Below, piece after piece: positions 8,844-26,836 of a stretch of 29,231 bases of DNA. Source of the stretch: a virus; IMG/VR virus record IMGVR_UViG_3300045012_000017, positions 1-29,231 of that record. The stretch is one strand, 5' to 3'. The notes beneath the pieces were generated by a model. The model was given only the letters and a program-made list of their open reading frames with translations, was not told where the DNA came from and did no database searches. The position numbers and the translations under genes were made by a program. Every line of letters starts with the position of its first letter. Within the stretch, counting starts at the first letter, position 1.

Positions 8844-8866
8844 CGGAGGCCCCAATCACTTGGTTA

Positions 8867-9878: not shown

Positions 9879-9880
9879 GA

Positions 9881-10357: not shown

Positions 10358-10483
10358 GTGACTGTGCTCCCAGTTTCTGTTTCAGTTAATCGAACGCCGA
10401 TCGTGAACCCTGGGGAGAATTCACTAAAGCTCGTTCTACCGGTCTATGATACGTAGAAAAGGGCCGGTCGATCTATCTACGAG

Positions 10484-10560
10484 TAGCGGGAGTGGGAATC
10501 GAACCCACACATTGGCCCAGACTCTAGGCCTGGCGTCTCTTCCATTTGGACTATCCCGCG
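10484..10560 (-). tRNA. tRNA with atypical anticodon loop (isotype uncertain)
   Basis: Read on the minus strand, the acceptor GCGGGA pairs with TCCCGC (six pairs; a seventh outer pair would be C-U). TA follows at positions 8-9, then a 3-bp D stem GTC/GAC with GG in the loop, an anticodon stem CCAGG/TCTGG, and a T stem GTGGG/CCCAC with loop TTCGATT. The seven-base anticodon loop is CCTAGAG, which has C instead of U at position 33 and places TAG at the anticodon (codon CUA, Leu). The variable region is short, unlike a true tRNA-Leu. CCA is not encoded. It lies inside the late operon between two virion genes. Confidence 0.75.
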
Positions 10561-10567
10561 AGTCTTG

Positions 10568-11470
10568 TTACGCCAGTTGCCCGCCCCCATGGCGGGCCAG
10601 ACCCTGTGCAGCGCCACCGGATACACCGGAGACATTGGCCCTCGCCCATGAGGCGAGGCGGCTCTGGAGCTGGGCAGAGTTGATGTCATTCCCAGTACCA
10701 GCCGTACCGGCACCAGGCTGGAACACTGCCTGCTCTTCATTGCCGTATGTGTAGTTCTGACCGAACTGCTGGCCTAGCTGCTGGAACGTGTTGAACTCCT
10801 GGGAGATCTGACTGTATCCCTGGGCCGCCTGAGCCTGGGTGAATCCGGCCTGGGCCAGTTGGGTGGCATATCCCTGGTCGAAGGTCAGTCCCCGCTGGAG
10901 TGCCTCGCTGCCGATGGCAGCGGTATTGGCCTGCTGCTGGAGGATAGGGAGAGCCTTGGTCGGATCCAGGAAGTAGGCAGTCATATCTCCCTGGCTCAGT
11001 CCCATCTGGTTGAGTGCTGCCGTATAGCTTGGCGACGCCGTAAGCGTCGCTTGACTGGCCAGCTGGACTCGGGACTGCAGTTCACTGGCTGACATGTTGT
11101 TGCCGATGAACTGGGTGAAGTCGGACGGACTGTCGTAGAATCCTGCGGGCAGTCCTGCTGCCCGCTCCACTGCCTGGTAGCTCTGCTCAGCAGAGAGGTA
11201 GTCGGCCGGGGAGAGAACGGAGAGTCCGTTCTGCTGCCTGATGGCATTGCCTGCGAACCTCTGCTGGTACTCAGGAGTCTGCTGGAGTAGGACTGTGATC
11301 GTGTCGGATCCGTAGCCCTGCTGCACATAGCTCAGAATGGTCGGTGCCAGGCTCGCCAGGCCGTAGCTGGTGAATAGTGCCAGCAGGCTTGTGTAGGCGT
11401 CCCTGTTGGCCCCTGTGAGGTCCGTGGCAGCGGCACTGGAGGAGGACGTGGAAGGCGCTGGTGTAGTCAT
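10568..11470 (-). CDS. Internal virion (ejection-type) protein, 300 aa
   Basis: This Ala/Gln/Ser-rich helical protein contains segments I know from a family frequent in actinophage virion gene clusters: LLALFTSYGLASLAPTIL, YVQQGYGSDTITVLLQQTPE followed by YQQRFAGN, GLSVLSPADYLSAEQSYQAV and LPAGFYDSPSDFTQFIGNNM. The order helix, TPEYxxRFA, LSPxEYL, GLPxGFYD is typical. The role is probably that of an inner core or ejection protein, but other phages place similar proteins with the tail. The start overlaps the upstream stop (TGATG). The last 50 residues are glycine-rich and low complexity. The tRNA gene begins eight bases after its stop. Confidence 0.72.
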   Translation of the reverse strand: MTTPAPSTSSSSAAATDLTGANRDAYTSLLALFTSYGLASLAPTILSYVQQGYGSDTITVLLQQTPEYQQRFAGNAIRQQNGLSVLSPADYLSAEQSYQAVERAAGLPAGFYDSPSDFTQFIGNNMSASELQSRVQLASQATLTASPSYTAALNQMGLSQGDMTAYFLDPTKALPILQQQANTAAIGSEALQRGLTFDQGYATQLAQAGFTQAQAAQGYSQISQEFNTFQQLGQQFGQNYTYGNEEQAVFQPGAGTAGTGNDINSAQLQSRLASWARANVSGVSGGAAQGLARHGGGQLA

Positions 11471-12756
11471 CAGAAGGCCTTCCCGAAGTCCTGTAGCACC
11501 TGGTGTGCTACGGTATAGAGACTGTCACGTGCATTGTTGGTCTGCATCCACCTGGGATCGGACCTGAGGTCGTTCTCGAACGACCACAAGGGCTGGCCCG
11601 GAGCACCGGGCGTGCCCGTAGCCGTCAGTGCCTTCTGGATGGTGGGATCGAACGCACTGATCGAGCTGGGATTCAACTCAAGGATCGTACCCATCTGCTG
11701 AATGTACGGACTGGCCAGGTCCTGCACTGTCTGTCCGCCGTTGATCTGCTGGGCGAACTGGCTGTACTTGGATACAGCAAGCTGCTTCAAGGCAGCTTGC
11801 ACATCGGTGAAGGTGCTGGTTCCCTGCTCGATTCCACGGATCATGTTCTGGTACCAGGGATTCGAGGCGGTCACACCCATCGAGTAGGCGTACTGCAGTG
11901 CGTTGTTGTACTGCGTCTCTGCATCCCCGGACATCCGTCCACCCGTCAGGGTGACGTACTGGCCAGCGAAGTACTGGGCCTGCTGGTCGGACCAGCCCTT
12001 GGCTGCGATGTTGTACGACAGTGTCGACAGGATCGACTTCATCTGTGCGGCCGGGACGTTCACACCAGTACTGGCCAGCAACTGCTGAGCCTTGACATTC
12101 GCTGCGGCCATCTGCTGGTTGGCTTCTGCTGGATCCGTAGCAGCCAGCGTGATGAACTTGCGCTCTGCGGCATCGTGAGTCTTCCACCAGTTGGTAGTCA
12201 TCAGCGTTGCCTGGAACTTGTCGTTGCTCCACTGGCCGGTGACGGCCTCGTTGAAGATTGTCTTCAGCTCAGGGTTGGCATTCAGGAACGCCTCAGTAAA
12301 CCCGTACTGTTCCGCCAGTGTTGCCGGATCGATGCTGGCTGGGGTAGTCGTACCACCACCTCCAGCATTGTCGGTACTACTCGTTGTGGTTACCGGCTGA
12401 CCGGCATTCGACAGAATGGTGCTGGCATAACCAGCACCAGCACCCAGGTTGCCCGGTCCCGCATTGTAGGCCTCTAGTGCCTTCTGTATGCTGCCACCCT
12501 CTTGGTGCAGCAGTTGGCCCATGTAGGCAGTGTAGGCATTGAAGGCATCCCCGACATTGAACGGGGAGCCGTATCCGACTTCGGCGAAAGTGCCAGGCAT
12601 GAACTGGGCAATGCCTTCAGCTCCAGCGGGGGACACGGCATTCGGATTGAAGCCGGACTCCTCGTTGATCTGAGCTGCGACAATCGATGCGGAGATGCCC
12701 AACGCCGCTGCGGCGGCGTTCACATACGGCTGGTACTCAGCTGGGACGTTCGTCAA
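11470..12756 (-). CDS. Virion lytic transglycosylase with internal-virion C-terminal domain
   Basis: The 428-residue protein begins with an SLT-type (family 1) lytic transglycosylase domain: NEESGFNPNAVSPAGAEGIA (31-50) with likely catalytic Glu33, then QFMPGT and a closing LEAYNAGPGNL near residue 98. This enzyme cuts glycan strands so the genome can cross the wall during entry. After a Thr/Gly/Ser linker (about 118-140), residues about 145-428 form a helical domain paralogous to the C terminus of the next upstream gene, sharing LAEQYGF, TNWWK, QINGG and NNARDS positions. It overlaps that gene by four bases. It is likely an ejection protein delivered with DNA. Confidence 0.85.
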   Translation of the reverse strand: MTNVPAEYQPYVNAAAAALGISASIVAAQINEESGFNPNAVSPAGAEGIAQFMPGTFAEVGYGSPFNVGDAFNAYTAYMGQLLHQEGGSIQKALEAYNAGPGNLGAGAGYASTILSNAGQPVTTTSSTDNAGGGGTTTPASIDPATLAEQYGFTEAFLNANPELKTIFNEAVTGQWSNDKFQATLMTTNWWKTHDAAERKFITLAATDPAEANQQMAAANVKAQQLLASTGVNVPAAQMKSILSTLSYNIAAKGWSDQQAQYFAGQYVTLTGGRMSGDAETQYNNALQYAYSMGVTASNPWYQNMIRGIEQGTSTFTDVQAALKQLAVSKYSQFAQQINGGQTVQDLASPYIQQMGTILELNPSSISAFDPTIQKALTATGTPGAPGQPLWSFENDLRSDPRWMQTNNARDSLYTVAHQVLQDFGKAF

Positions 12757-14069
12757 GAAGCAACCCCCAGATTCTGGAGTACCTGGTGCCCTATCGCCAT
12801 AGTGCTGTCACGTGCATTGTTGGTCTGCTGCCACTGCGGAGACTGTCTGACCATGTTCTCGAAGTCGGACTGTGTCATACCGTTCGGCTGGCCTTGTGCG
12901 TTCGTGCCGTTCAGCGCCTGCCGGATCATCGGAGTATTCAGACTGTAGCTGGTATCCGGCTGCTCCAGCAGCTGGGATGCTGTCTGGATGTACGGCTGTG
13001 CGATGTCGTTCATCGTCGCACCACCATTGATCTGCTCCTCGTACGCGGGGAACGTACTGATGGCAGTCTGACGGATCTGGGCCTCGGCATCGTCCTGGGT
13101 CATGAGCCCCTTGGCGATGAGCTGTGCCTGGTTCTTGACTGCCTGGTCAGAAAGGTTGACTCCCTGACTGTAGGCATACTGCTGAACGGTGTGCTGGAAT
13201 GCTCCTGCGGCACCCCCGAGGGTGCCGTTGTTCTGGAAGTTCACATAGCTTCCGAGCATCTCTTCAAGCTGGCCATTGTCAAGGTTCGCCTTGATGGCAG
13301 TGTTGACGATGTTCCCCATCTGGGATGCGGGAATGGCAGCACCCATAGCCTTGGCCATCTGGGTGATCTGCACGTTCATCGCCAGGACCTGGGCATTCCA
13401 CTGGGCAGGGTCGGTCTGCTGGGTGACGAGTGCCTGCTTGGCGGTGTCGCTATTGTCCTTCCACCAGTTCGTATTCTGCAGTGCAGCCTGGAACTGTGCG
13501 GTACTCCAGGTTCCGGCGACAGCCTCACTGAACACGTTCTTCAGATCCGGGTTGCTGTTGAGGAACGCGTAGGACCAGCCGTACTGCGCTGCCAGCTCCT
13601 GGGGGTCCAACTTCGGAGCCACGGCGGCTCCGCCTGTGTAGTTGAAGTTGACGCCAGAGCCTGAGCCGTTGACGCCAGCGATCTGGCGTCCACCAACGAA
13701 CCTGGACATGTAGTAGTCGTTGGCCATGCTGGTGACGCGAACGGCTTCACCTGGCTTCGGAGCTTCCAGGATGTTGCCGTTCCCCACATAGATGGCGACA
13801 TGGTCGGGACTGTCGGTACCAGGACTGGCACTGAAGAAGACAAGGTCACCGACCTGCAACTTGTCGGACGCTACAGGCGTCCCGACACCTATCTGGTCGT
13901 AGGTGGTCCGGGGCAGGTTGATCCCGAAGTTCTTGAACACCTGCTGGACCAGGCCACTGCAGTCGACACCGGAAGTGAGGCTGTTGCCTCCCCAGACATA
14001 CGGCGTCCCCTCGAACTGCTCACCGTAGCTGACGATGTCCTGTGCTGAGATTCCTGATGGAGTAGTCAT
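12753..14069 (-). CDS. Virion NlpC/P60 peptidase with internal-virion C-terminal domain
   Basis: Residues 1-125 are an NlpC/P60 cysteine peptidase domain: GTPYVWGGNSLTSGVDCSGL (21-40) with catalytic Cys37, LQVGDLVFFS (71-80), and DHVAIYVGNGNILEA with His90. Glu102 lies where many members carry a second His, which the family tolerates as a variable polar residue. Such enzymes cleave peptide bonds in peptidoglycan. After a short linker the remaining 280 residues are paralogous to the C terminus of the downstream transglycosylase gene (LAAQYGW, TNWWK, EQINGG, NNARDS). It is probably an ejected virion protein acting on the wall at infection. The start overlaps the upstream stop (TGATG). Confidence 0.87.
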   Translation of the reverse strand: MTTPSGISAQDIVSYGEQFEGTPYVWGGNSLTSGVDCSGLVQQVFKNFGINLPRTTYDQIGVGTPVASDKLQVGDLVFFSASPGTDSPDHVAIYVGNGNILEAPKPGEAVRVTSMANDYYMSRFVGGRQIAGVNGSGSGVNFNYTGGAAVAPKLDPQELAAQYGWSYAFLNSNPDLKNVFSEAVAGTWSTAQFQAALQNTNWWKDNSDTAKQALVTQQTDPAQWNAQVLAMNVQITQMAKAMGAAIPASQMGNIVNTAIKANLDNGQLEEMLGSYVNFQNNGTLGGAAGAFQHTVQQYAYSQGVNLSDQAVKNQAQLIAKGLMTQDDAEAQIRQTAISTFPAYEEQINGGATMNDIAQPYIQTASQLLEQPDTSYSLNTPMIRQALNGTNAQGQPNGMTQSDFENMVRQSPQWQQTNNARDSTMAIGHQVLQNLGVAS

Positions 14070-15031
14070 CAGAGCGGGTTCCCACTCAACAGTGACTGCA
14101 GTGCGCCCATGTAGGTTGTCGCAGCCTGGTAGTTGGCATACTCAGAGGTGCCACGGATGTTCTGCTCCGCGATGTTCTGAGCACCAGTGGAGCTGACACC
14201 ACCAGTAGACTTCAGAGTATCCTGCGATACCACGAAGCCTTCAGGGTTGTACTCCTTCTGGACCGTGGAGATGGTCGGGTTGGCAGTCTCGACCTGGTTC
14301 AGGTTGGCATGGAAGGCAGCTTCCTCATCAGCAGTGGGTGCCCTGCCCAGCAGCGACTGCGCTGCTGATACGAAGATAGCATTGGCATCCTGCTGAGAAG
14401 TCAGGGTGACGTTGCTGACGTCCTTCGTGACAGTCTTGTTGTCTTTCCCGATACCGCCGGAGTTACTGGAGATGTCCTTTGCGAGGACATCCCAGGGCGT
14501 GACAGCCTGACCAGCCTGGGCATAGTTGGCTGCCTGCTGAACCAGGCCGCTCCATGCCGTTGCAAGCTGGGCATCAGTTGCCGTGTAGGCCGTACTGTCA
14601 ACCAGTGCGTACTGAGCCCTGAACTCGTTCTGCTGCGCCTGGGTCCACTGGTAGTACATGTTGTCAGCGGCCTGCTGGTTGACCACGACAGGAGCGCCAG
14701 CCTTGCTCCCCACGGTCGCGCCGGGGAGAGTGAAGGTGGCACCAGGATCATAGATCCCGTAGGTCTGGGTCTTGCCGCTGAGGGTGGCACCCAGGCCGGT
14801 CTGCTGGAATCCAGGGAGCTGGCTCTGACTCCCCGGCCCAGCCCCTTGGGGCTGACTCTGTGTCGTACCGAAGTAGATGTTCCCACCAGCGGAGCTGGTG
14901 AATGCTCCGACATTGCCAGTCAGGGTCTGCGGTGCGGTGTTGGCGGCAGCCACGGTGGCCTGCGCCTGCTGGGCCTGCGCCTGAGCGGTAGGAGCAAGAC
15001 CGGCGGTCTGCTCCGGTGACGGTGTGGTCAT
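14069..15031 (-). CDS. Internal virion protein, 320 aa
   Basis: A strong Shine-Dalgarno (AGGAG, six bases upstream) precedes the ATG at 15031. The first 80 residues are Ala/Gln/Gly-rich and low complexity; the middle contains QWTQAQQNEFRAQYALVDS and QAVTPWDVLAKDISSN. The last third has QSLLGRAPTADEEAAFHANL, a segment recurrent in actinophage internal or tape-like virion proteins, followed by NIRGTSEYANYQAATTYMGA. No enzyme domain is seen. Neighbouring genes with wall-degrading heads suggest one ejection complex. Function is inferred from context. Confidence 0.72.
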   Translation of the reverse strand: MTTPSPEQTAGLAPTAQAQAQQAQATVAAANTAPQTLTGNVGAFTSSAGGNIYFGTTQSQPQGAGPGSQSQLPGFQQTGLGATLSGKTQTYGIYDPGATFTLPGATVGSKAGAPVVVNQQAADNMYYQWTQAQQNEFRAQYALVDSTAYTATDAQLATAWSGLVQQAANYAQAGQAVTPWDVLAKDISSNSGGIGKDNKTVTKDVSNVTLTSQQDANAIFVSAAQSLLGRAPTADEEAAFHANLNQVETANPTISTVQKEYNPEGFVVSQDTLKSTGGVSSTGAQNIAEQNIRGTSEYANYQAATTYMGALQSLLSGNPL

Positions 15032-15039
15032 GTCTGCTC

Positions 15040-18000
15040 CTAACCGTTCAGGGCATTGGCTTGTGCCACTTCATTGGGGTTCGGCACATTAGTGCCGTCG
15101 TACACGTCGAACAGGTCACCGGTAAGATACCTGTCATACAGCGTCTGAAACGCCGTATTGGACTGAATGATGTTCATCACCGACTGCTGGAAGTACGCCT
15201 TGAGGTCCTGATTGGACTTGGCATTGATGTCGCCAGATCCAGAACCCAGAGCCTTCTTTAGTGTCGGAGGATACTCAGCGCCTGAGCGCTGAGCGAGTGC
15301 ACCCTGTACGGTCGCCCTGTATCCCAGGTATGCCTGAAGGCCCTGGATATCCTTGCGCCCACTCAGCTCCTTGGCGGTTGAGATGTCAAGGAGTGCGAGG
15401 GCGTTGGCATTCTGCTTCGACGGATCGTAGTCGTCGTAGGCTGCGGTCCAACTGGCATTGTAGAAGTTGTTCGGCGTGACACCGTCAGGCATAGTAGCCG
15501 AGCTGAGAACCTTCACGAACGCCTGCTTCTGTGCGAGCAGATCCTCGGCACCCTTGTCGTTGAACGTTGTGAGTCCACGGTTGTAGAGCTGGGCAGTGAG
15601 GCCGTTCATGTAGCTGGAGTACTGGTCCCAACCGAGGTTGGTCTCCATCTCGGTCCAGGCCTCCTGTGGGGTCTGCTTGACCCGCTGGCCGCTGATGACC
15701 TGCTGCTCGTATGCGGACTGGCTGTAGGCTCCAGCGCCCTGGCTTCCGATGATGACACCGGCCAGGCTCGGGTTCTCATTGATGAGGTTGGCGTAGCGCT
15801 TGGCGAGCATCTGTCCGGCATTGGTCGCCGGGATTCCAGGGATCTCGTTCTTGTTCAGACTGGCAGTGAAGGCATAGGCCGAGTCGCCGTACTTCGCATA
15901 GAACACCTGGTCTGCCGTGTCAGGGTTGGCAGCAGTGATCGTGTTGTACTGGTCACGGAAGAACTGGTACGGATCCTGGAAGTCCATCGAGAACGGCAGG
16001 ACGCTGGTCCCCTTGAACCATGCCTTCATGGCTGCCATCTGCTGACCACGCGCTACAGCATCAGCCCAAGTGGGCTGCTTGCTGAGCGATCCCTGCTCCC
16101 ACCGGTAGTTCAGGTCCTGCATGGCCTGCAGTGTCGTAGCAGCGACGGAACCATCAGAGTTGGAAGTCTGAATGGAACTGAGTACCGAGCCGTAGAGCTC
16201 GGACATGCTGCTCGGCTGGATCCCAGTAGGCAGGATGCCAATCTTGGTCAGGAAGTCGCCGACCGACGGCGGCTCCGACATGGCGAACTTGTTGGCTGCC
16301 ATCTCGACAACCGGGCCTTCACCAGGATTGAACCACGGGTCATTCCTGAATGCGAGGTTCAGGGAGGACAGCGGGATCTCGGCGACAGCATTGGGACCAT
16401 AGGGGTTCTTCCACTGCCAGCCGTTACCGGACAGCAGCGAGGTCGCCGCATTCATGGTCTTCATCATGTCGTTCGGCATCTGGAACCGGATCATGGTCTG
16501 GTCCATCGGGACCAGGTACTTCTTGCCGGTACTCGGGTCGATGCTGTATCCGTCGACAATCGGCTGACCGTTGTAGGTGTACTCCTTGCCGATCCTCATC
16601 GGGGCAGAGTAGATCGCTGCCATGTTGCCGACAACGCCAGGCTTCTCCGCGAGGATCCTGCCCCAGCGGTTGGCTGCCTCCTGGCCAGCCCCGAAGAATG
16701 GGGACACGAACCTCGTGGCATGCTGGACCTTAGTCTCGAAGTCCATGTTGTATGTGAACTTCTTGACATCACGGACAGCATTGGCTCTTGAGATACTGGC
16801 AACCTTCTGCAGTTCCTCATTGGTGAAGTGGGTCTTGCCCTGAGCCTTCGCCAATGCGAAGGCCTCCTTTACATGGCTGCGATACAGGGTTGCAGCGAGA
16901 GGATTGCGGGACAGGATATTGGCGGGCTGCTCAGCGGTCCACTTGTAGTACTTGCTGATGATCTTGTCGATCTTCTGCATGGAACTGGACTGGCCAGTGG
17001 CGATACCGTAGTCGGCACCGTGCACAGCAGGACGGGCGTTCTGGCCCGTCTTCTTCATGGCATCCAGGACATCCTCATCACTGCCCCCCTTGGCCACAAG
17101 GGAACGCAGCGCCTGGAAGTCCGGGGAAGTAGCAGGAAGGTAGTGGTTGACGTGGGCCGCAATACGGTCCGCCAACTCATCCGCTCCCCAGTTGTAGATC
17201 CTGCCACCAGACCCAGTGAGGTTGGTACCGACTGCCTTGTAGTAGTCAGCGCCGTGGCCTCGGAGCCACGTCGCAATCTCAGCAGGAGTGCGACCCTTGA
17301 CCACCATCATGGCAGCAGGGTCGTTCTGGATCTGCTTCTGGACCGAGTTCAGCCATGCCTTAAGGTGCTCGGGATCCGAGTTTAGGTATGCCTTGGCATT
17401 GTACTCACCACGGAAGTCAGCGAGCAGGTCAGCCGCAGTGCCCCCAAGGGCACTGTTGAAGGTGTTCCGCATGCCGTTCTTGTCGACATACATACGGCCC
17501 TCAGGGCCTTCCCCGAATCCGGGGACGGTGTAGCCGTTCGAGTTGGTGACACGCTTGTCGACCAGCTTCGCATGGTCGTTCTCCAGGACTGCCTGATTGG
17601 TCCGCATCTGACTGAGCTGGTCGTCCAGGTCGGCAATGTTCGCCTCATGGAAAGTCAGCATCTTCTTCTGGAGCGGAGTCTTCAGGTAGGAGGCCTCGAT
17701 CTTGGCGCGGGCAGCCTTGGCCTCTTCGAGCTTCTCACTCAGGGAGTCGACCGCACTGTTCACAGCGAGACGCTTGGCCTCGTACCCACTGCTGTCGTAC
17801 AGCCAAGTGGCCTTGCGGAGGAACTGGCCCTTCAGGCCCTTGGTTGCATTGCTCGCAATCGTGTACGCGCCCAGGCGTGCAGCCTGGCCGAGGAAGTCGT
17901 CAGACATCTGGCGAAGACCGTACCCTAGACGGACGTGGGCGTTGAACTTCCAGATGTGGTTGAACGTATCAGCGAAGGCGTTGTACGCATCCTTGGAGCG

Positions 18001-19929
18001 CTGCATTGCCAGGCCGGGTCGGATCTGCTTGGTCACATCCTGGGATGCTTCCTCGTAGGACTTGCCCTCATCTATGAGTCGCTGGAATGCCTTGCCGTTC
18101 AGCTTCAGGATGTTCTTCATCTTACTGAAGTCCATCACTGTGTGGTAGTTGCCCTGGAGCTGGGTCTTGAGGACCGGGTGCGTCATGATGAGGGAACCGT
18201 CAGCCTCGTCGATACTGTGCGCCATCCCGAGGTCGTTACCTGCGGCATCCTTGAGGGATGCCGTGGAGTAGATCGAGTTGAAGGCATGGGCTCGACCGTT
18301 GCTGAACACGTTGTACAGCGTCTGCGCACCGTGCTCGTCCATACCGGCATTCGCTGCCAGGCGTGCCAGGGTCTTGGCTTCGAGGCTGGTGACCACCTGG
18401 CGCTTCAGGTCGTACGGCGCTGCAATGTAGCTGCTGACAGCGGTAGAACGCTCGGCATCCGTATATACCCCGGACTCACGGAGCTGGGCATCCAGCTCGC
18501 GGTGCGAGTTGGGGTCCTTCAGGTCGAGCCAGCCGTTCGGCAGGACGTTCGACCATGAGGTTCCGACCTTGTTGAAGAACCGCAGAGGCCGTGCGAACAG
18601 GTGGTTGTACAGGATACTGCCACTTCCCGCATAGGAATACAGCGGGTTGGCCGCAGCCATAGCTGCGGACAGCGTGGGCGTGATCTTCGAGTTGAAGTAC
18701 AACCCCTTCTGCAGACCGGCACCCTCAGCAGCGAGCTGGTTGCTGACAATGTGGGTCTGGTTCTCTACATCCTGCATCTTGTTGGTAGCGTCGGCAAGCT
18801 CCAGTGCGTACTGCTGACCCATCGGAGATGCAGGATCAGGAAGCTTGGCGATGTTCGAGTGCAGCAGGTTGATCTTCTGCTGTGCATTGAGGAGATCATT
18901 GCCCAGCTGTGCGTTCTTGGCCTTCAGTCCATCGAGGTGGTTCTGGTCCCCGAGACCGGCCTTGATGACACCGTTGAGTTCGTCACGGTCTTTGGCCGCA
19001 GCCATCGAGGCTGCGATCGTACCGGACATGGCACCCTGCTTGGCGAACGGCTGCTTCACTACCCACTGGGCGAACTGGTCGTCACCGATCTTGTCCTTCA
19101 TGCCCTGGATGTAGTCGCCGAACTTCACGAAGTTCGAGCCCTCGATGTTGGATGCGAGGGCCTTCTTGCTGACCTTAGTGAGTCGCTCACCCCACGCGTC
19201 TGCGATGGAGTTGACGCCTTCGGGTGTCGCACCAGCAAGCTTGGCAGTGCCGGTCAGGGCCTTGCCCACGAGAGCACCCTTGAAGGTGGCGTTCTCTGTG
19301 GTGACGATCGGCTTCACATAGCCGACGTCCTTGATGTACTTCAGACCCTTACCGGCGAGAGCCAGCGGATCCAGGTAGAAACCTGCTGCGGCATCCATGC
19401 CACCGGACACCCACTGCTGAATGCCGTGGTTGAAGTAGGCAGTCTTCTGGTCCGGGTGGTCCCAGATCAGGGTGCCGTCAGTGTTCTGCCCAATGAGCTG
19501 CTTCTTCTCCCAGGCGTCATCGAAGAAGCCACGGGCATCGATGTAACCAGCCTGGCCAGGAGACACGTTCTTGGCAAGGTCCCAAGACTGGGTCCAGGTA
19601 GACCCGGAGAACAGGGACTTGTTATTGACGTCGGCTTCCTGTCCTGCAATCAGGGCAGTCGTCAGCGGGTGGGAGATGACATTGCTATACAACCAGTACA
19701 TTCCGGAGCCGATAGCCTCCAGTGGATGCATGATCGCATCACCGAGGTTGGCCTGGTCGAGACCCTTGGTCTCGATCTGCTGCTGGATCTGCTTGTCGTA
19801 GGCGTTCTGCATCTGCTGGATCGCCTGCGGGGAACCGGCAGTGAACGGGGCAACGCCAGGAGTCGGGTTAGGCTGGCCGACCAGGGTGGTCGGCAACTGG
19901 CTCCCCTGCGGCTGGACTGGCGTTCCCAT
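15040..19929 (-). CDS. Very large internal virion protein (1629 aa), probable DNA-ejection protein
   Basis: This is the largest gene in the window. The N terminus is a Pro/Gln-rich segment, followed by HPLEAIGSGMYWLYSNVISH (68-87), which is mildly hydrophobic. Helical, coiled-coil-prone stretches are seen near residues 330-405 (NAQLGNDLLNAQQKINLLHS and onward) and in the KLEEAKAARAKIEASYL region. The C-terminal third contains THFTNEELQKVASISRANAV and RFVSPFFGAGQEAANRWGRI, motifs shared by large internal proteins of podoviruses and some tape-measure-like proteins. I looked for single-subunit RNA polymerase motifs because N4 virions carry a polymerase of large size and found none convincing. 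No tail tube gene adjoins it, so an ejection protein is favoured over a tape measure. Confidence 0.75.
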   Translation of the reverse strand: MGTPVQPQGSQLPTTLVGQPNPTPGVAPFTAGSPQAIQQMQNAYDKQIQQQIETKGLDQANLGDAIMHPLEAIGSGMYWLYSNVISHPLTTALIAGQEADVNNKSLFSGSTWTQSWDLAKNVSPGQAGYIDARGFFDDAWEKKQLIGQNTDGTLIWDHPDQKTAYFNHGIQQWVSGGMDAAAGFYLDPLALAGKGLKYIKDVGYVKPIVTTENATFKGALVGKALTGTAKLAGATPEGVNSIADAWGERLTKVSKKALASNIEGSNFVKFGDYIQGMKDKIGDDQFAQWVVKQPFAKQGAMSGTIAASMAAAKDRDELNGVIKAGLGDQNHLDGLKAKNAQLGNDLLNAQQKINLLHSNIAKLPDPASPMGQQYALELADATNKMQDVENQTHIVSNQLAAEGAGLQKGLYFNSKITPTLSAAMAAANPLYSYAGSGSILYNHLFARPLRFFNKVGTSWSNVLPNGWLDLKDPNSHRELDAQLRESGVYTDAERSTAVSSYIAAPYDLKRQVVTSLEAKTLARLAANAGMDEHGAQTLYNVFSNGRAHAFNSIYSTASLKDAAGNDLGMAHSIDEADGSLIMTHPVLKTQLQGNYHTVMDFSKMKNILKLNGKAFQRLIDEGKSYEEASQDVTKQIRPGLAMQRSKDAYNAFADTFNHIWKFNAHVRLGYGLRQMSDDFLGQAARLGAYTIASNATKGLKGQFLRKATWLYDSSGYEAKRLAVNSAVDSLSEKLEEAKAARAKIEASYLKTPLQKKMLTFHEANIADLDDQLSQMRTNQAVLENDHAKLVDKRVTNSNGYTVPGFGEGPEGRMYVDKNGMRNTFNSALGGTAADLLADFRGEYNAKAYLNSDPEHLKAWLNSVQKQIQNDPAAMMVVKGRTPAEIATWLRGHGADYYKAVGTNLTGSGGRIYNWGADELADRIAAHVNHYLPATSPDFQALRSLVAKGGSDEDVLDAMKKTGQNARPAVHGADYGIATGQSSSMQKIDKIISKYYKWTAEQPANILSRNPLAATLYRSHVKEAFALAKAQGKTHFTNEELQKVASISRANAVRDVKKFTYNMDFETKVQHATRFVSPFFGAGQEAANRWGRILAEKPGVVGNMAAIYSAPMRIGKEYTYNGQPIVDGYSIDPSTGKKYLVPMDQTMIRFQMPNDMMKTMNAATSLLSGNGWQWKNPYGPNAVAEIPLSSLNLAFRNDPWFNPGEGPVVEMAANKFAMSEPPSVGDFLTKIGILPTGIQPSSMSELYGSVLSSIQTSNSDGSVAATTLQAMQDLNYRWEQGSLSKQPTWADAVARGQQMAAMKAWFKGTSVLPFSMDFQDPYQFFRDQYNTITAANPDTADQVFYAKYGDSAYAFTASLNKNEIPGIPATNAGQMLAKRYANLINENPSLAGVIIGSQGAGAYSQSAYEQQVISGQRVKQTPQEAWTEMETNLGWDQYSSYMNGLTAQLYNRGLTTFNDKGAEDLLAQKQAFVKVLSSATMPDGVTPNNFYNASWTAAYDDYDPSKQNANALALLDISTAKELSGRKDIQGLQAYLGYRATVQGALAQRSGAEYPPTLKKALGSGSGDINAKSNQDLKAYFQQSVMNIIQSNTAFQTLYDRYLTGDLFDVYDGTNVPNPNEVAQANALNG

Positions 19930-19931
19930 AG

Positions 19932-20126
19932 TTAGTCTCCGGGGTTGTAAGGTGGCGTCTGGCTCTGGAACAGGCTGGACGCTATGGCACTGATAGCAGT
20001 GCGCGACATCGGGATGCTCGACAGGTCATAGGCGACGCGGGGAGTCTGATTGGCGACAAGTGCCAGGCTCCCGAGGTCATCAGCCCACTGTCCAGGATGC
20101 TCGTAGGCGGAGGGGGCTTCAGACAT
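19932..20126 (-). CDS. Hypothetical protein (64 aa)
   Basis: The short protein MSEAPSAYEHPGQWADDLGS is followed by a helical region and ends LFQSQTPPYNPGD. Its ATG lies eight bases inside the preceding gene and its stop is two bases before the large internal virion gene, so it is firmly part of the operon. It has no cysteines, membrane segments or recognised motifs. A small adaptor or core-assembly component is possible from location, but nothing in the sequence proves this. Confidence 0.62.
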   Translation of the reverse strand: MSEAPSAYEHPGQWADDLGSLALVANQTPRVAYDLSSIPMSRTAISAIASSLFQSQTPPYNPGD

Positions 20127-20550
20127 TGGAACTGCTCGCCTTGATCTGCCGGACGATGTTGCCCAGTGCCCAACTGGAGTTGGGCTGATTGGACATGAAC
20201 TGCAGGACTGGCAGGTAGGACTGGAGGGACTTCATGTCCTGTCCGGACTGGTTGGGCAGCCCAAGGCTGGACATGTCGGGTCCAGGGCCAGAATTGGCAC
20301 CGGCAGTGACAGGCTCATTCGGTCGCTGACTCGGTGCCCCGATCGGAACCACCTGCGCCGCGAGTGGGTTTCCAGCAGGCTGAGCGGGTGCCTGGCCCGA
20401 GTCCGCAGCCATGGGAGCACCCTGCTGCTGCGACTGGTAGGCCTGCTGTTCTCCGTAGTCGGCATTGGGCAGATCCCTCGTCTTCTGTACGTCTCCGATG
20501 TCAGTGCGCTTGGCGAATCCGCCAGGGCCTGATACCTGGTTAGCGACCAC
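20119..20550 (-). CDS. Low-complexity Gln/Pro/Gly-rich protein (143 aa)
   Basis: The gene begins at a GTG overlapping the upstream stop by eleven bases. Residues about 35-105 are rich in Gln, Pro, Ala and Gly (QQQGAPMAADSGQAPAQPAG and onward) and look disordered. A compact C-terminal part, LQSYLPVLQFMSNQPNSSWA then LGNIVRQIKASSSNV, could be a short helical binding module. It lies between the portal-linked small genes and the internal virion proteins. Function unknown. Confidence 0.62.
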   Translation of the reverse strand: MVANQVSGPGGFAKRTDIGDVQKTRDLPNADYGEQQAYQSQQQGAPMAADSGQAPAQPAGNPLAAQVVPIGAPSQRPNEPVTAGANSGPGPDMSSLGLPNQSGQDMKSLQSYLPVLQFMSNQPNSSWALGNIVRQIKASSSNV

Positions 20551-20743
20551 TGATCATCCCTTCGAACTTGCGGTCGACATCACGCTGCATCTGGTGCTGC
20601 ATCGTCATCATGGCCAGACCACTGAGGGTCTGGGCTGCTGCGTCCGCAACACTGGAAGCGAAGTGGAGACCGACGGCCAGAACGGACAGCCTGTCATGCC
20701 TGAACGGCTTGAGTACGTATTCGATCCCCACTTCGTCGTCCAT
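20540..20743 (-). CDS. Small helical protein (67 aa)
   Basis: The ATG at 20743 overlaps the upstream TAA (TAATG) and is preferred over a start 57 codons earlier that would read through the neighbour in another frame and is full of Arg and His. The protein MDDEVGIEYVLKPFRHDRLS continues AVGLHFASSVADAAAQTLSG and LAMMTMQHQMQRDVDRKFEG. It has an amphipathic or weakly hydrophobic central helix and a charged C-terminal helix. It could associate with the membrane or with a helical core. No family is recognised. Confidence 0.62.
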   Translation of the reverse strand: MDDEVGIEYVLKPFRHDRLSVLAVGLHFASSVADAAAQTLSGLAMMTMQHQMQRDVDRKFEGMISGR

Positions 20744-21045
20744 TACTTGGCCATGCTCCCGCCGCCCATGGTGAGCGGAGTGTTGACCTCGATAGTCGAG
20801 TTCGGGCTGATGGCGGGAGACGGGCTGTGGGCCCGGCTCGCACCGGTCTCGCTGGTGGACTCGATGCCGTCGAACTCGTACGGCTGCATCATCATGCCCT
20901 TCAGGGTCTCCCACTGGGTCGAGTTCTTCTCGGCGTGGCCCGGGAACATGCCAGAGGTCATGCCCTGGTCGTCGGAGAACTGGCCGTCAGGGCCAGAGGT
21001 GAAGCCGGTAGTGACACCACCGACGCCCGCAGATTCGTACGCCAT
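20743..21045 (-). CDS. Hypothetical protein (100 aa)
   Basis: The protein MAYESAGVGGVTTGFTSGPD is rich in Gly, Ser, Thr and Met and contains MFPGHAEKNSTQWETLKGMM and a C-terminal TIEVNTPLTMGGGSMAK. Both ends overlap neighbouring stop or start codons (TAATG at each side), a pattern of tightly coupled translation. No domain is recognised. Position near the portal suggests a head-vertex or ejection accessory role, which is inference only. Confidence 0.62.
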   Translation of the reverse strand: MAYESAGVGGVTTGFTSGPDGQFSDDQGMTSGMFPGHAEKNSTQWETLKGMMMQPYEFDGIESTSETGASRAHSPSPAISPNSTIEVNTPLTMGGGSMAK

Positions 21046-21227
21046 TACGCTGCCTTCTTCCGTGTGTTAGCGGCAGGAGGTTCCTCGACCGCTTCAGGCT
21101 CACCGCAGCGACCGCAGCGGAGCTTGCCCAGTTGATCCTGAATGTACTGGTACAGCTCGCCGAGATGGCAAGAAGTACAGATGCCGCCGACATGGGTCGG
21201 CGTCTGGCTGAGGCTGGTCATGCTCAT
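21045..21227 (-). CDS. Small zinc-ribbon protein (60 aa)
   Basis: Two CxxC pairs, Cys17-Cys20 (CTSC) and Cys38-Cys41 (CGRC), are separated by 17 residues, LGELYQYIQDQLGKLR being the core of the spacer. This is a rubredoxin-like or zinc-ribbon arrangement that probably binds one zinc. The tail is basic and proline-rich (EEPPAANTRKKAA). The ATG overlaps the portal stop (ATGA). Its role is unknown; zinc ribbons near portal genes could act in assembly, regulation or nucleic-acid binding. Confidence 0.72.
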   Translation of the reverse strand: MSMTSLSQTPTHVGGICTSCHLGELYQYIQDQLGKLRCGRCGEPEAVEEPPAANTRKKAA

Positions 21228-23065
21228 CCGGCCGGACCCCTACGGTTGATTGTTGCGGAAAGGTTGGGCTGCCCACTGGCAGACATGCCAGCAAGCAGTG
21301 ACATCAGGTCAGCTCGCCCACCGGGCCCCTGGCCTGCTTGACCAGGGGCAACACCTTGGGGAAGGCCACTCTGTTCAAATCCTGGAGGGAGACCGGGTTG
21401 CCCTGGTCCTCCTGCTCCTGGAGCCATACCAGGACCGCCAGCTGATCCAGGCTGACCTGGCGGAGCTCCTGGCGCTGGCTTGGGGGTGAAGGCTTCGAGG
21501 ACTGCTTCATGCAGTGGTGTTCCCTTCTCCCTCAGTTTGATCACCTGCGCCGCTTCCTTGAGAAGCGTCGTCGGATCCTGACCCTGCGATGCCATGATGC
21601 CGATCTGCTGGAGATAAGCCATGAGGCCCTGCTTGATCGCATCAGTGATCTGTTCGTTGTCTATCTGGGTCTGCAGTTGCACGATGTCGATGTCCATCGG
21701 CAGCTGGCGCTGTACAAAGTCGCGAGAGACAAGCTGATCTCCGCGAAGCTGGAGCAGTGCAACGATCGCACGTGCCGGATCCTGGCCTGCTGCAAAGCCG
21801 TACGTGACATCAACTGTGTGTACTCCGTGGATGTCCTTGACCGGAGTGTAGGACTCTTCGAACGGTGTTCCATTCACCATCCCCCTGATCGTCTTCTGGA
21901 CATCAGGCCAGAGCTTCTCGTCCATGTCGAAGGCCATCTCGATGGCACAGCGGAGTGCCTCGGAGGCAACCTGCTGGCCAGTGGTGATGACCATGTTGAA
22001 GTTGCCCATGAGGGCTTGTACGCCCTTGCCGGTGATGATGCTGGCATCGATGGAGCCTGAGCGTGCCTCGTTGTAGCGCACACTCTTGTACAGCTCCTGC
22101 TCCAGCATCTCCTGTTCCTGCGTGGCAGCCTGTGGAACATCCAGCCCGACCCTGCGGATCTTGTCCGGGGAGTCAGTACGGATGATGGCATCGTCACCGA
22201 AGGTCATCTGCTGGACATCACGAGGCACCGCCAACGGTGCCCGGATCGTCTTCTCGGTCGCCTCCAGTCCGAGCAGGGCCATGCGGCCCTTGGCGAGCTG
22301 GACCCAGATGGCGTCGTCCCAGGCACCACGGATCTCCTTGTCGAAGCCCGGACGGACCGCGATGGAGATGGTCACCTTGCCCATGGGGTTCGGCATGCTA
22401 GAGACGACCTGGTTGGAGTGGCCGGGCAGGAACATCACGATCTGGTCGGCATCCACATACTTGCAGATCTCGATCTCTCGGGAAGCCCACGTGTTGTCGT
22501 TGCTGTTGTTCGGACAGAGCACCCGCCTCAGGGCGGGGTGCTTGGCAACGAGGTGGACAGCCTCCTCGTACCAGACCTTGCTGTAGGAGACAAGCTTCCC
22601 GAACAGGTTCCACTGAGGATAGATGCCGATCGGGTTCTCAACCCTGATGACAGGCATCTGGGATTCGAAGTCCGGCTCGACACAGTAGACGCCCATGCCG
22701 TACGACATGTAGGAGTCGCAGAACTCGACCTGCTTCCCCGAGGGAAGCTGGGAGCGCTGGACCCAGTAGTGTGCGATCTTGGTCCGCTTGGCAGAGAACT
22801 TCTTGGCTGCCTGGCTGGTGATCACACCAGAAGTGCAGTTGATGCTGGGCATGACACCCATGGTCTCGGAGATGTCCCGAGCGGTGGTGTCGATGAGGTT
22901 CGCCACGATTGGCTTTGGCCATGCGTCAGGCATGGCACCGGGCATGATGGTGTCTACATCCCCGGACCGGATGTCCCGGACATCCTTGTTCCGCTGATCG
23001 CGGGCCCTAGCGGCGAACCTCAGCTTCGTGACCAGGTCGGCGATTTCACTGTTGCTGAGTGCCAT
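21224..23065 (-). CDS. Portal protein
   Basis: The 613-residue protein has portal-like architecture: an N-terminal helical region (ALSNSEIADLVTKLRFAARA), IANL-type segment PKPIVANLIDTTARDISETM, a wing region with EFCDSYMSYGMGVYCVEPDF and VENPIGIYPQWN, a stem-like part around SIDASIITGKGVQALMG, and a C-terminal helical crown (LMAYLQQIGIMASQGQDPTT). The last 90 residues are a Pro/Gly-rich extension. Portals form the dodecameric DNA channel at one capsid vertex and bind the terminase. GAGG lies upstream of the ATG. Size and location between terminase-lysis genes and head genes support the call. Confidence 0.82.
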   Translation of the reverse strand: MALSNSEIADLVTKLRFAARARDQRNKDVRDIRSGDVDTIMPGAMPDAWPKPIVANLIDTTARDISETMGVMPSINCTSGVITSQAAKKFSAKRTKIAHYWVQRSQLPSGKQVEFCDSYMSYGMGVYCVEPDFESQMPVIRVENPIGIYPQWNLFGKLVSYSKVWYEEAVHLVAKHPALRRVLCPNNSNDNTWASREIEICKYVDADQIVMFLPGHSNQVVSSMPNPMGKVTISIAVRPGFDKEIRGAWDDAIWVQLAKGRMALLGLEATEKTIRAPLAVPRDVQQMTFGDDAIIRTDSPDKIRRVGLDVPQAATQEQEMLEQELYKSVRYNEARSGSIDASIITGKGVQALMGNFNMVITTGQQVASEALRCAIEMAFDMDEKLWPDVQKTIRGMVNGTPFEESYTPVKDIHGVHTVDVTYGFAAGQDPARAIVALLQLRGDQLVSRDFVQRQLPMDIDIVQLQTQIDNEQITDAIKQGLMAYLQQIGIMASQGQDPTTLLKEAAQVIKLREKGTPLHEAVLEAFTPKPAPGAPPGQPGSAGGPGMAPGAGGPGQPGLPPGFEQSGLPQGVAPGQAGQGPGGRADLMSLLAGMSASGQPNLSATINRRGPAG

Positions 23066-23076
23066 AGAGCCTCACC

Positions 23077-23886
23077 TCAGGTGGTGGGTACGGTGGGAGC
23101 CACTGCAGCCGGGGTGGGTGTGGCAACAGGCTTGAGGCCGTTGAAGAACTCGTGGATGGTGTTGATGGACCACGCGTCCACAGCGGGGGCATTCTCAGGG
23201 ACGGTTCCCTTGAGTGCGTTGGCGAGCCAGAAGATCGTGTCTGCCACGATCACACCGCGCTCCTCCTGGATCGCCGCTACGGCGGCGGCCTTGACGTTCG
23301 CAAGGTCTTCGGCATTGAGGGGCAAGTCAATCTCCTGGGGATACTGGCCGAAGTCTGCAACCTCGGAATCGTCTACATCTGCTCCGCCACTGAGGACGGT
23401 ACCGCCGTCCTGGCGGATGGTGGCATAGGGCGACCACTGGCCGTTCGACCATGCCGAGGTCTGCCACAGGTACTTGTACCCGGCAGCGTGCGCGCCCTCG
23501 ATGACCTTGATGCCACCGTAGACTCCGACGTAGTCGACACCTATGACGGATGCCACTCCAGCGAAGTACTGCTCTGCCTGGGGCCACTCGGCATCGGTGT
23601 CGACAGCGAAGTAGATCGGCATATCCTTCGGAAGGCCGACAGCCTTCTGCTGGGAATAGGCCTGGGAAGCGTCCTGTACGCCCTTGTCGCGGCCTTCCAG
23701 GGCCGCCCCGGCGGTATACTCCCAGACGGTCACGACAGGCAGTCCTGCGGCCGTATAGGCCGTTACCTCATCGGCCGTGAGGTTCTTCGTCGGGTCGTCG
23801 CTGAAGTATCGTGCAACCCACTTCGCCCCGGTGGCCTTGATGCCGTCCGTATCCGGACGCGCCCAGGCAATGTCAATGCCCTTCAT
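23077..23886 (-). CDS. DUF1906 (Rv2525c-like) glycoside-hydrolase-fold endolysin
   Basis: A strong Shine-Dalgarno, AGAAGGAG, precedes the ATG. Residues 1-185 match the DUF1906 / Rv2525c-like glycoside-hydrolase-type domain: MKGIDIAWARPDTDG with Asp5, VARYFSDDPTKNLT, LPVVTVWEY with Glu56, MPIYFAVDTDAE with Asp96 and Asp98, and YVGVYGG. The domain occurs in actinophage lysins and is thought to act on cell-wall glycans. The C terminus has a helix (AEDLANVKAAAVAAIQEERG) and a Pro/Thr/Ala tail but no recognised wall-binding module. The start overlaps the preceding membrane gene by 14 bases, so holin-like and lysin functions are adjacent. Confidence 0.82.
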   Translation of the reverse strand: MKGIDIAWARPDTDGIKATGAKWVARYFSDDPTKNLTADEVTAYTAAGLPVVTVWEYTAGAALEGRDKGVQDASQAYSQQKAVGLPKDMPIYFAVDTDAEWPQAEQYFAGVASVIGVDYVGVYGGIKVIEGAHAAGYKYLWQTSAWSNGQWSPYATIRQDGGTVLSGGADVDDSEVADFGQYPQEIDLPLNAEDLANVKAAAVAAIQEERGVIVADTIFWLANALKGTVPENAPAVDAWSINTIHEFFNGLKPVATPTPAAVAPTVPTT

Positions 23887-24175
23887 CGTGCTCCTTCTGG
23901 CATTCGAGCATCTCCTTCATGAGGGCCAGCTCCTTCTTCACCATGTCGTGTGTCTCCTTGGCCTGCCTGGTGACGGACCGGCCGGTAACGGCCGTACCCA
24001 CCATGAGCAACGGGAGACTCCAGAGCTGCACAGTATTGGACCAGTAGAGCAGCGTGACCATGAGACCGGGGAACAGCAGTGGCAGGAACCCGTACAGAAA
24101 CAGCGCATATGTGGTGTACATCGTGCCGAAGATGTCGGTGGCCTTGACGGCCACCCACTCATTGAACTTCCTCAC
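23873..24175 (-). CDS. Small two-helix membrane protein, holin-like or lysis accessory
   Basis: The GTG start overlaps the upstream stop (GTGA). The 100-residue protein begins MRKFNEWVAVKATDIFGTMY and has hydrophobic helices at about 19-42 and 48-65, then a charged helix (RSVTRQAKETHDMVKKELAL) and a basic/acidic tail. Two-helix proteins of this kind next to an endolysin gene are holin candidates; RKFNxWxAVK starts are also known from a broader family of small actinobacterial membrane proteins. Two such proteins lie in tandem here, perhaps as a holin/antiholin pair. Confidence 0.68.
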   Translation of the reverse strand: MRKFNEWVAVKATDIFGTMYTTYALFLYGFLPLLFPGLMVTLLYWSNTVQLWSLPLLMVGTAVTGRSVTRQAKETHDMVKKELALMKEMLECQKEHDEGH

Positions 24176-24525
24176 TCGACACCCATCTTCTGCGCCAGCC
24201 TCTTGAGGAGTTCAAGAGTGCGCATGTCTACCTGGTAGTCCTCGGAGACGGTTGCACTCTGCGCAGCCTCGATGGCTGCGATCCTCTGGAGCATGTCGTC
24301 CATCTTCTTCGAGCTGCGGGCACCGGAGTAGGCCAACGCTGGCTGTGTGATAGCGGAGTACACCGTCAGCCAGTACAGAAGCAGGAAGCCGTTGGCATCG
24401 AGCTTCGGAAAGAAGAACTCGACAAGGACAACACCTACGGTGACTCCGAAGGTCTGCCACACTCCAGGACCTGATGTGAACCAGTCCTCGAACCAGGCGA
24501 GAGCTGCATCGCTCCACTTCTTCAC
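24172..24525 (-). CDS. Two-helix membrane protein with coiled-coil tail
   Basis: The GTG start overlaps the terminase stop (GTGA). The 117 residues comprise WSDAALAWFEDWFTSGPGVW, membrane helices at about 21-39 and 46-65 (VTVGVVLVEFFFP and FLLLYWLTVYSAITQ), and a C-terminal helix (KKMDDMLQRIAAIEAAQSAT and on) that could form a coiled coil. With the downstream membrane gene and lysin it makes a plausible lysis cassette. No specific family is recognised, so its role as holin, antiholin or anchor is open. Confidence 0.68.
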   Translation of the reverse strand: MKKWSDAALAWFEDWFTSGPGVWQTFGVTVGVVLVEFFFPKLDANGFLLLYWLTVYSAITQPALAYSGARSSKKMDDMLQRIAAIEAAQSATVSEDYQVDMRTLELLKRLAQKMGVE

Positions 24526-26480
24526 GACCAGCCCCCGTTTCCCGATTGCATAGCTGCTTGGCTTGCATAATCCAGATCTACTGTCATGACCTTCTCCCTG
24601 TCCCTCTGGGACAGGTACCTGTTAGGGATGGTGAACTGGTTGTCGAGCTGGTCGCACAGTTCACGTGCCCTGATCTCCGCGAACCACAGTGCCATGACCA
24701 AGTCGGTCTTCGACTTGGTCTCAGGGAACCAGGTGGTGAGCTGCTCGACCAGGGCCTTGACTCCCTCGGAGCCGCCACGGTTCGGGAGCTTGATGAGGTT
24801 GCGGCCGGTCTCATGCCCGTCGAACAGCATCGACATGGAGGCAACACCGAAGTCCGTGTCCCACTTGTTCTTGCCAGTGAAGTGCTCCTTGAGGAGGCAG
24901 CCCCGCTGGGCCATGAACTTCCGCAGTTCACTCGACTGGGTCACCATCAGGTTCATGGCGTTCTTCTCGATACGCCACTCGTTGATCCTGTACTTGACTG
25001 TCAGCTCTTTGATCTTGTCGAAGATGTCATCAGGCTTGCAGTGCGGCTTGGTCCAGCAGTCCAGCACCCAGCGCTCGCCGCTGTAGCGGTCGACCGCCAT
25101 GACGATGCTGGCACTGTGGCCTGTCATCGCCGGGTCGAAACCCCCGATGACATATGTACCTTCCATGCCATGCGCACGATGGCCGGGTGCGCCACCAACC
25201 AGAGGGCCAGGCTGACGCATGCCGTTGACACAGCCAACCACTTTAGCAACCGGGAAGATCGCATCCTCGATCACCTGCTCCTGCATGTAGACCATGGCCC
25301 AGTTCCGAGGGGACATCTTCGAGCGCTTCTTCTGAAGCGCCGGTCCGTCCCACATCGGATAAGTCCCGTCGGCAGCCTGCTCAACAAGCTTCTTGGCCTT
25401 CAGAGAGACTGGGGGTCTGTTGGTCCTGGGCCAGAGCGTGACCCACTCCCTGACGTCGTCACTGAACTCCAGCACTGCGGGCTGGGTCAGGTAGGTCCAG
25501 GGGGAGGAGTCGTCGTCGCTGTAGTACTCGGGCTTCTGGATCTCCACGTACAGATCAACAGGGGCCAGTCGAGTGCCGACCAGCAGGAGCTTCCCGCCGG
25601 GAACAGCGAGACGTGACATGATCTCGTTCTGGATCCAGTCGATCTGCTTCGCGAAGTCATGAGCGTTCCCCATGTCCACACAGTCGTCCATGACGATGAG
25701 GTCGGCACGGGCACCGTAGATCTGACCACGGATACCGACAGCACGAACCGTCGGATCCTTCTCGCCAGAGTCACGGCTGTCACCGGAGACGTAGATCTCA
25801 CTGGCGGTCCAGGCGGAGCTGTTCGCATCGAATCCGCCCTCAGGGGCGAAGTCCATCTGCAGCTTCGAGTAGGACGAGTTGGTACCGGCAAGCCTGTCCT
25901 TGACCGCGCGGAGGAAGCGCTTGGCCATCTCCTGGGTCTTCGACACGATAATGATACGTACGTTGGGATCCTCGCAGATCCGGTACGTCACATAGTTGAT
26001 CGTGACCGTCGTGGACTTGGCATGCTCAGGGGGAGTGTTGATAATGAGGACTTCAGGCTCACCAGGCGAGTACACCTGGGACTCATGGAGGTTCCTGGGT
26101 TCACGGTCCTCAAGGAGGTCGATCCACTGGAGGTGGTGATTGAAGAGCTGGGTGTCCAAGTACTTCATGCAGAAGTCCTCGAACGAGGGCATGCCCTCAG
26201 CTCTTCCCTCCCCGGGATTCGTAGCGATCGCCTTGAGGCGATCCATGTCCTGCCGAAAGTTGGGATCAGTCCTACGCCAGTACTCATAGGTCTTGACGGA
26301 CAGACCGAGGTCCTCCATCGCCCTAGCGATGGGGATGCCCTTCTTCCTATAGCCGAGAACGATCTCCTTGTTCCTGGCTGCTCCCTCTCGGGAGCCCTTC
26401 TTGCCGATGTTCTTGCCGCCTACCTGTGCGACATTAGGAGAGTACTTGCCGTCCTTGGCGAGCGTATTTCTGTTCGCCAT
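24522..26480 (-). CDS. Terminase large subunit (ATPase-nuclease), with N-terminal HTH-like region
   Basis: This 652-residue protein drives DNA packaging. With the ATG at 26480 as start, an atypical Walker A PPEHAKST lies at 150-157, Walker B LIVMDD at 261-266 and a coupling motif GTRL at 302-305. The C-terminal RNase-H-like nuclease has GGFDPAMTG (Asp449), RIEKNAMN (Glu505) and KTDLVMALW (Asp593) as likely metal ligands. Residues about 40-85 (GYRKKGIPIARAMEDLGLSV, KTYEYWRR) look like a helix-turn-helix, a feature usually found in small terminases. A GTG at 26489 is an alternative start with GAGAGAG upstream. It is the first gene of the late operon. Confidence 0.92.
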   Translation of the reverse strand: MANRNTLAKDGKYSPNVAQVGGKNIGKKGSREGAARNKEIVLGYRKKGIPIARAMEDLGLSVKTYEYWRRTDPNFRQDMDRLKAIATNPGEGRAEGMPSFEDFCMKYLDTQLFNHHLQWIDLLEDREPRNLHESQVYSPGEPEVLIINTPPEHAKSTTVTINYVTYRICEDPNVRIIIVSKTQEMAKRFLRAVKDRLAGTNSSYSKLQMDFAPEGGFDANSSAWTASEIYVSGDSRDSGEKDPTVRAVGIRGQIYGARADLIVMDDCVDMGNAHDFAKQIDWIQNEIMSRLAVPGGKLLLVGTRLAPVDLYVEIQKPEYYSDDDSSPWTYLTQPAVLEFSDDVREWVTLWPRTNRPPVSLKAKKLVEQAADGTYPMWDGPALQKKRSKMSPRNWAMVYMQEQVIEDAIFPVAKVVGCVNGMRQPGPLVGGAPGHRAHGMEGTYVIGGFDPAMTGHSASIVMAVDRYSGERWVLDCWTKPHCKPDDIFDKIKELTVKYRINEWRIEKNAMNLMVTQSSELRKFMAQRGCLLKEHFTGKNKWDTDFGVASMSMLFDGHETGRNLIKLPNRGGSEGVKALVEQLTTWFPETKSKTDLVMALWFAEIRARELCDQLDNQFTIPNRYLSQRDREKVMTVDLDYASQAAMQSGNGGWS

Positions 26481-26535
26481 ATGCGGCACATCTCTCTCGT
26501 GTCGGCCGGTCCTGTCGGACCTCACTTCAAGGTAG

Positions 26536-26748
26536 GCAGCCCTCAGGGGCTGCTATCCGGGGGGATGATTCCCAGGAGGAAGGGGCTCTAGGGGAAAGCA
26601 GGAGGGAGCCCATAGGGGCTCCTGCACAGGGGACCCTGCTACAGGTGCTACATGGTACGGACCCTCAGGGGTCCGCTCCAGTGGTCTTCTGGAAGAAGAC
26701 ATACCCGTGGCTACTCAGTTGTAGTTAGCCACGCCCTAAGGGGCGTGG
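26536..26748. other. Chain of perfect hairpins in the late-operon leader
   Basis: At least five perfect hairpins with 7-8-bp stems lie nearly end to end: arms 26536-26542/26547-26553 (loop TCAG), 26605-26611/26616-26622 (ATAG), 26658-26664/26669-26675 (TCAG), 26684-26690/26694-26700 (GGA) and 26729-26736/26741-26748 (TAAG). Alternatives also exist: GCAGGAG at 26598-26604 pairs with 26619-26625, and GTGGCTA at 26707-26713 pairs with 26726-26732, each competing with a listed hairpin. There are no U tracts. The region is the 5' leader of the terminase mRNA if the promoter at 26774-26802 is used. A regulatory RNA or a packaging site are both possible. Confidence 0.8.
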
Positions 26749-26773
26749 AGCTTGTGTCTCAGTGTGTCCCATT

Positions 26774-26802
26774 ATTATAGAGGCGATATGATCATGGTCC
26801 TC
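26774..26802 (-). promoter_or_regulatory. Predicted late promoter with perfect -10 box
   Basis: On the minus strand a perfect TATAAT occupies 26779-26774, and the -35 position 17 bases upstream reads GAGGAC, which is weak. The predicted start is near 26767, giving a leader of about 290 bases before the terminase. A weak -35 with a strong -10 is typical of activator-dependent promoters, and a Crp-type site lies at the matching distance upstream. The genes from 26480 to 910 have almost no other gaps where a promoter could sit. Confidence 0.65.
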
Positions 26803-26820
26803 AGATGGGATTGCGAAAAG

Positions 26821-26836
26821 TGTGACCAACGTCACA
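26821..26836. promoter_or_regulatory. Crp/GlxR-type operator upstream of the late promoter
   Basis: The palindrome TGTGACCAACGTCACA has perfect TGTGA and TCACA half sites spaced by six bases, the core recognised by Crp-family regulators, and it also fits the GTG-N6-GNCAC pattern described for Streptomyces Crp. Its centre, 26828.5, is 61.5 bases upstream of the predicted late transcription start, the classical class I activator position. This could place late transcription under host cAMP-receptor control. The binding itself is inferred. Confidence 0.6.

Follow-up and report, generated by a model that had tools for sequence, protein, structure and literature searches.

We found a perfect Crp-type palindrome in front of the putative late promoter of a Beephvirinae-like phage fragment, at the position of a class I activator site, and this arrangement recurs in related phages. 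The best reading, to which we assign a probability of roughly two in three, is that the palindrome would be bound by host Crp and that Crp would act there by class I activation. The analyzed DNA, here called the window, is the complete stretch of 29,231 nucleotides of IMG/VR record IMGVR_UViG_3300045012_000017, a virus fragment of 29 kb.

The Crp-type site and the putative late promoter in the window

Judged by terL homology and gene order, the window is a piece of a Beephvirinae-like phage. The TerL protein shows about 62-64% identity to that of Immanuel3, WRightOn, FlowerPower, Stella and other Beephvirinae, and the order of the late genes from terL over lysin and portal to the capsid region agrees with Immanuel3 and WRightOn. 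All of these phages were isolated on Streptomyces, and PMC11536984 describes Abafar as a virulent podovirus. A DNA search with the promoter region returned no match among the cultured phages; short elements are therefore conserved, not the surrounding sequence.

The sequence TGTGACCAACGTCACA at positions 26821-26836 is the sole perfect TGTGA-N6-TCACA of the window (Table 1). A sequence-only reading of this DNA had described such a site centred 61.5 bases upstream of the predicted start of a promoter with a perfect TATAAT and a poor -35, preceding the virion genes. All three points were confirmed. The dyad at 26828.5 is located 61.5 bases from the predicted +1 at 26767, the hexamer at 26779-26774 of the minus strand has no TTGACA-like partner at the -35 position (17-bp spacing), and terL is the first long gene downstream on the minus strand, followed by the genes for the endolysin, the portal and a 1629-aa protein. 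A sigma-70 scan did not call this promoter.

Table 1. Features of the late promoter region and the late block in the window.
Feature	Position	Strand	Basis or remark
Crp-type palindrome TGTGACGTTGGTCACA	26821..26836	-	dyad 26828.5, at -61.5; motif match, conserved in relatives
Spacer between site and -10	26780..26820	-	without -35 consensus; GAGG-N15-CCTC inverted repeat
-10 hexamer TATAAT, putative late promoter	26774..26779	-	relatives have TATAVT at the same spacing
Predicted transcription start	26767	-	inferred, first T of TATAAT set at -12
Predicted late-mRNA 5' leader, about 240 bases	26526..26766	-	CCCCT/AGGGG-core hairpins
terL, large terminase, first gene of the late block	24522..26525	-	homology; start at 26525
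Remaining late block in the window: lysin, portal, 1629-aa protein, capsid-region genes	1973..24521	-	order as in Immanuel3/WRightOn

Dinucleotide shuffles gave an expectation of 0.07 perfect palindromes per window and of 0.004 within the surrounding 1.4 kb; the palindrome together with TATAAT at class I spacing did not arise in any of 300 shuffles. When up to two mismatches were permitted, 11 copies of the motif were observed in the window, compared with 18.5 expected. A general enrichment of degenerate sites was therefore rejected, and the evidence consists of the perfect copy and its conservation.

The predicted leader contains three or four hairpins: three (26729-26748, 26657-26676 and 26536-26553) were listed for the identical locus L004, and a further one (26605-26622) was read from the sequence. 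Most of the 63 loci compared below have GC-rich hairpins with a CCCCT/AGGGG core and differing arms within the 300 bases that precede terL; inside terL they are less frequent. After the early plus-strand genes the window contains an exact 40-bp tandem duplication (27980-28059), which holds a GC-rich hairpin followed by T-rich sequence and is terminator-like.

Conservation of the palindrome in related phages

For comparison we used 80 IMG/VR loci and cultured phages, dereplicated to 63 loci, a few of which have little upstream sequence. Upstream of terL, 31 perfect TGTGA-N6-TCACA palindromes occur in 47 kb, distributed over 28 of the 63 loci, and none occurs in the 235 kb from terL onward. The gap of 6 is essentially exclusive, as other gaps give 0-1 palindromes upstream of terL; in the same region the reversed control palindrome at gap 6 was not found, and the next most frequent gap-6 palindrome is present in 5 loci. 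In the complete genomes of Immanuel3, WRightOn, Stella and Abafar, perfect sites are located solely at the late promoter, at an expectation of 0.03-0.2 perfect sites per cultured genome; in Abafar they are listed two times, owing to duplication of the terminal repeat. FlowerPower contains two sites with one mismatch each. Three loci (L012-L014) carry the palindrome far upstream, at -1059 to -1070 and without a clear -10, and three others (L011, L015 and L016) have no site with up to one mismatch.

Most core columns of the aligned sites reach 1.7-1.9 bits (1.1 for the first column), and the columns between and around the core about 0-0.9. Taken as an alignment pattern, ten conserved core positions, the first one less so, with mostly variable inner and flanking positions are a binding-site footprint. 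According to the sequence-only reading, lack of the palindrome in close relatives would have counted as a refutation. We found palindrome and spacing kept well beyond close relatives, and a functional site of the Crp type in class I position is thereby supported. We judge the cis-element to be genuine and conserved, and a function to be very probable.

Spacing to the -10 hexamer and the second site

Measured from the dyad to the first base of the -10 hexamer, the distance is 48-50 bases in 20 of 29 site/-10 pairs. The strict hexamer TATAVT around the sites shows a peak at this distance (13 cases) and a second peak at 104-105 (9 cases), since many phages carry a second, distal site. In many relatives this site is found 55-57 bases upstream of the first, near the terminal repeat; in FlowerPower the distance between the sites is 46, about one helical turn shorter. 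The distance from dyad to -10 is 43 in L067 and L075 and 45 in L041, compared with 49. In the nearby relatives L007-L010 the palindrome is kept, and the likely -10 is located about 62-64 bases from the dyad. The earlier claim of a class I Crp-activated promoter is supported in part: palindrome and class I spacing are conserved, but the exact -61.5 is not kept in these four loci, and L011, L015 and L016 show no site.

A scan of IMG/VR for the palindrome with TATAVT at this spacing yielded at least 119 stretches, and most of the 80 that were inspected are low-GC contigs. Spacing without conservation therefore proves little, and geometry alone was rejected as proof.

Immanuel3, WRightOn, FlowerPower, Stella and Abafar share with the window the late gene order and a Crp-type site before terL. 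In these five phages two sites lie close to the end of the terminal repeat and the promoter is mostly TATATATA, whereas the window has one site and TATAAT. Of the five cultured genomes, four contain the sequence TATATATA, which contains or adjoins the -10, exclusively at this promoter; Immanuel3 is without it and has TATAGGTATAGT. Many relatives (L020, L028, L069, L074, L162 and others) contain a TGTC-N15-GAC inverted repeat 9-11 bp after the site. Lying between site and -10, it is possibly a second operator; in the window it is replaced by the GAGG-N15-CCTC repeat.

The neighborhood of the terminal repeat raises the question whether the sites serve packaging or terminal-repeat processing, as targets of the terminase or of an architectural protein, and not transcription. 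In four cultured genomes the terminal repeat ends exactly at 275, 264, 253 and 263, respectively, and the distal site begins 28-29 bp further on; in most two-site relatives it is 31-37 bp away from the start of the end hairpin. Since the distance between distal site and hairpin is nearly fixed, DNA-end processing may account for some of the conservation and is a possible role of the distal site; the window contains the proximal site only. The proximal site, however, is tied in its position to the -10. In single-site phages the distance to the -10 stays roughly similar, while that to the hairpin varies (74, 133). Moreover, the terminal-repeat hairpin was looked for in the window and not found. 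As an explanation for the sites in general we consider packaging improbable. At the start of L002, L003, L089 and L090 the terminal repeats end inside a conserved hairpin, between AGTG and AGTCCC, 28-29 bp before the distal site. The terminal repeats are 253-275 bp long, and the Abafar record has instead a 396-bp repeat that includes both sites.

Host Crp as the candidate binding protein

Among 61 sites, position 6 is Y in 54 and position 11 is R in 55, as in CRP sites. The Rex operator, TTGTGAA-N4-TTCACAA, has the same outer half-sites and spacing, but it differs in the inner A6...T11 pair, which occurs in none of the 61 sites; Rex was rejected on the basis of these inner bases. The strong consensus of the Streptomyces Crp (SCO3571) regulon, GTG(N)6GNCAC (PMC10033298, citing Gao et al. 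2012), is fitted by the palindrome TGTGACGTTGGTCACA of the window on both strands, and by 45 of the 61 sites in the relatives. The Streptomyces Crp examples quoted in PMC10033298 are less perfectly palindromic than the phage sites, at which binding is predicted.

The Crp homologues encoded in the genomes of Streptomyces composti and S. hoynatensis carry the LVGASRETVNKAL helix with the CRP recognition motif SRETV. These two genomes contain 3 and 4 such palindromes compared with 0 control matches. In both of them (L096 and L100) a perfect Crp-type palindrome is located just upstream of a GAF-PAS-GGDEF gene, a possible link of Crp to c-di-GMP.

It is also conceivable that a regulator encoded by the phage, a repressor or an activator, binds the palindrome and times late transcription. 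The sites occur almost exclusively at a single promoter of the phage, genes for a sigma-like protein, WhiB and HTH proteins are present in these phages, and the TGTC-N15-GAC element may be the site of a phage factor. We nevertheless regard this explanation as unlikely. The motif fits the Crp consensus given in PMC10033298, and the two Streptomyces genomes contain it as well, each of them next to a GGDEF/PAS gene. Furthermore, no cyclic-nucleotide-binding domain (PF00027) was found in 15 phage records, the record of the window being a fragment, and a phage-encoded Crp was rejected for this reason. Two reports count against host Crp: the E. coli site is reportedly not bound by Crp from S. coelicolor (review PMC5449483), and tagged Crp from S. 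tsukubaensis gave no shift on the cya promoter (PMC10033298). Motif match, the absence of a phage gene for a cyclic-nucleotide-binding protein from the records searched and the recognition helix of the Streptomyces homologues together point to host Crp as the probable acting protein.

The phage sigma-like gene and its neighborhood

Each of the 11 relatives searched, among them the near-identical G001, has a phage sigma-like gene. Sigma region 4 of the encoded protein is supported by profiles, and its structure model is weakly similar to sigma factors (best Foldseek E 0.016, to sigma-28). Given this gene, the holoenzyme at the late promoter may be that of the phage or that of the host. In cultured genomes a calcineurin-like phosphoesterase gene precedes the divergent sigma-70-like gene (L002:35380-36880, L254-L262); the phosphoesterase shows superfamily-level matches only, and a function as cAMP-phosphodiesterase is speculation. 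In some relatives the sigma gene is preceded, at a distance of 0.8-1.6 kb, by a perfect palindrome of the Crp type. In G004 another perfect site is located 50 bases before a TACAAT in front of the phosphoesterase-sigma operon, and class I spacing of the extra sites near this operon was seen in G004 only.

Discussion

The phage site shares with class I CRP promoters of the E. coli lac type the sequence TGTGA-N6-TCACA, a dyad at -61.5, a usable -10 and a weak or absent -35, and in both cases a fixed spacing has been kept in evolution. In contrast to the lac type, it belongs to a phage late promoter, the sites are often arranged in tandem (-61.5 and about -117), several relatives add the TGTC-N15-GAC repeat, and activation is predicted. 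The sign of regulation cannot be read from sequence, and position alone was examined; host Crp could thus bind and repress, or merely bend the DNA, so that the late genes would be delayed and not driven. At CRP promoters, repressor sites more often overlap the region from -35 to +1. The classical layout for activation has a dyad near -61.5 and a poor -35 (for the class definitions see PMC5449483), and repression or bending appears to us quite improbable.

Class I activation by host Crp would work as follows. The palindrome is the predicted binding site of host Crp, a member of the cAMP receptor protein family, and the Crp dimer at -61.5 would contact the alpha-CTD of the host RNA polymerase. 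The polymerase would in this way be recruited to a late promoter with a good -10 and no usable -35, and the phage sigma-like protein may help to read it. In the many relatives with a second site 55-57 bp further upstream, a second dimer is probably added. The late block is presumably transcribed from this promoter, Crp probably activates it and does not repress it, and cAMP probably matters; the late block from terL to holin would then be made well only with active host Crp.

Virulent phages are usually thought to time their late genes by factors of their own. In the open literature searched, no earlier report of a host-Crp-type site at a phage late promoter was found. The near-perfect Crp-type site, kept at a fixed promoter distance in very different relatives, suggests that host cAMP/Crp may switch on or tune the late genes. 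The connection to germination and development of the host, which the sequence-only reading had drawn, is a speculative extrapolation. It is a tentative thought, rather doubtful at present, that host cAMP/Crp gates the late block throughout a subfamily of actinophages which are probably strictly lytic, with tandem dimers beside the terminal repeat and, in certain members, with an additional Crp site at the phosphoesterase-sigma operon. The phosphoesterase might then adjust cAMP, and phage output would track the nutrition and development of the host.
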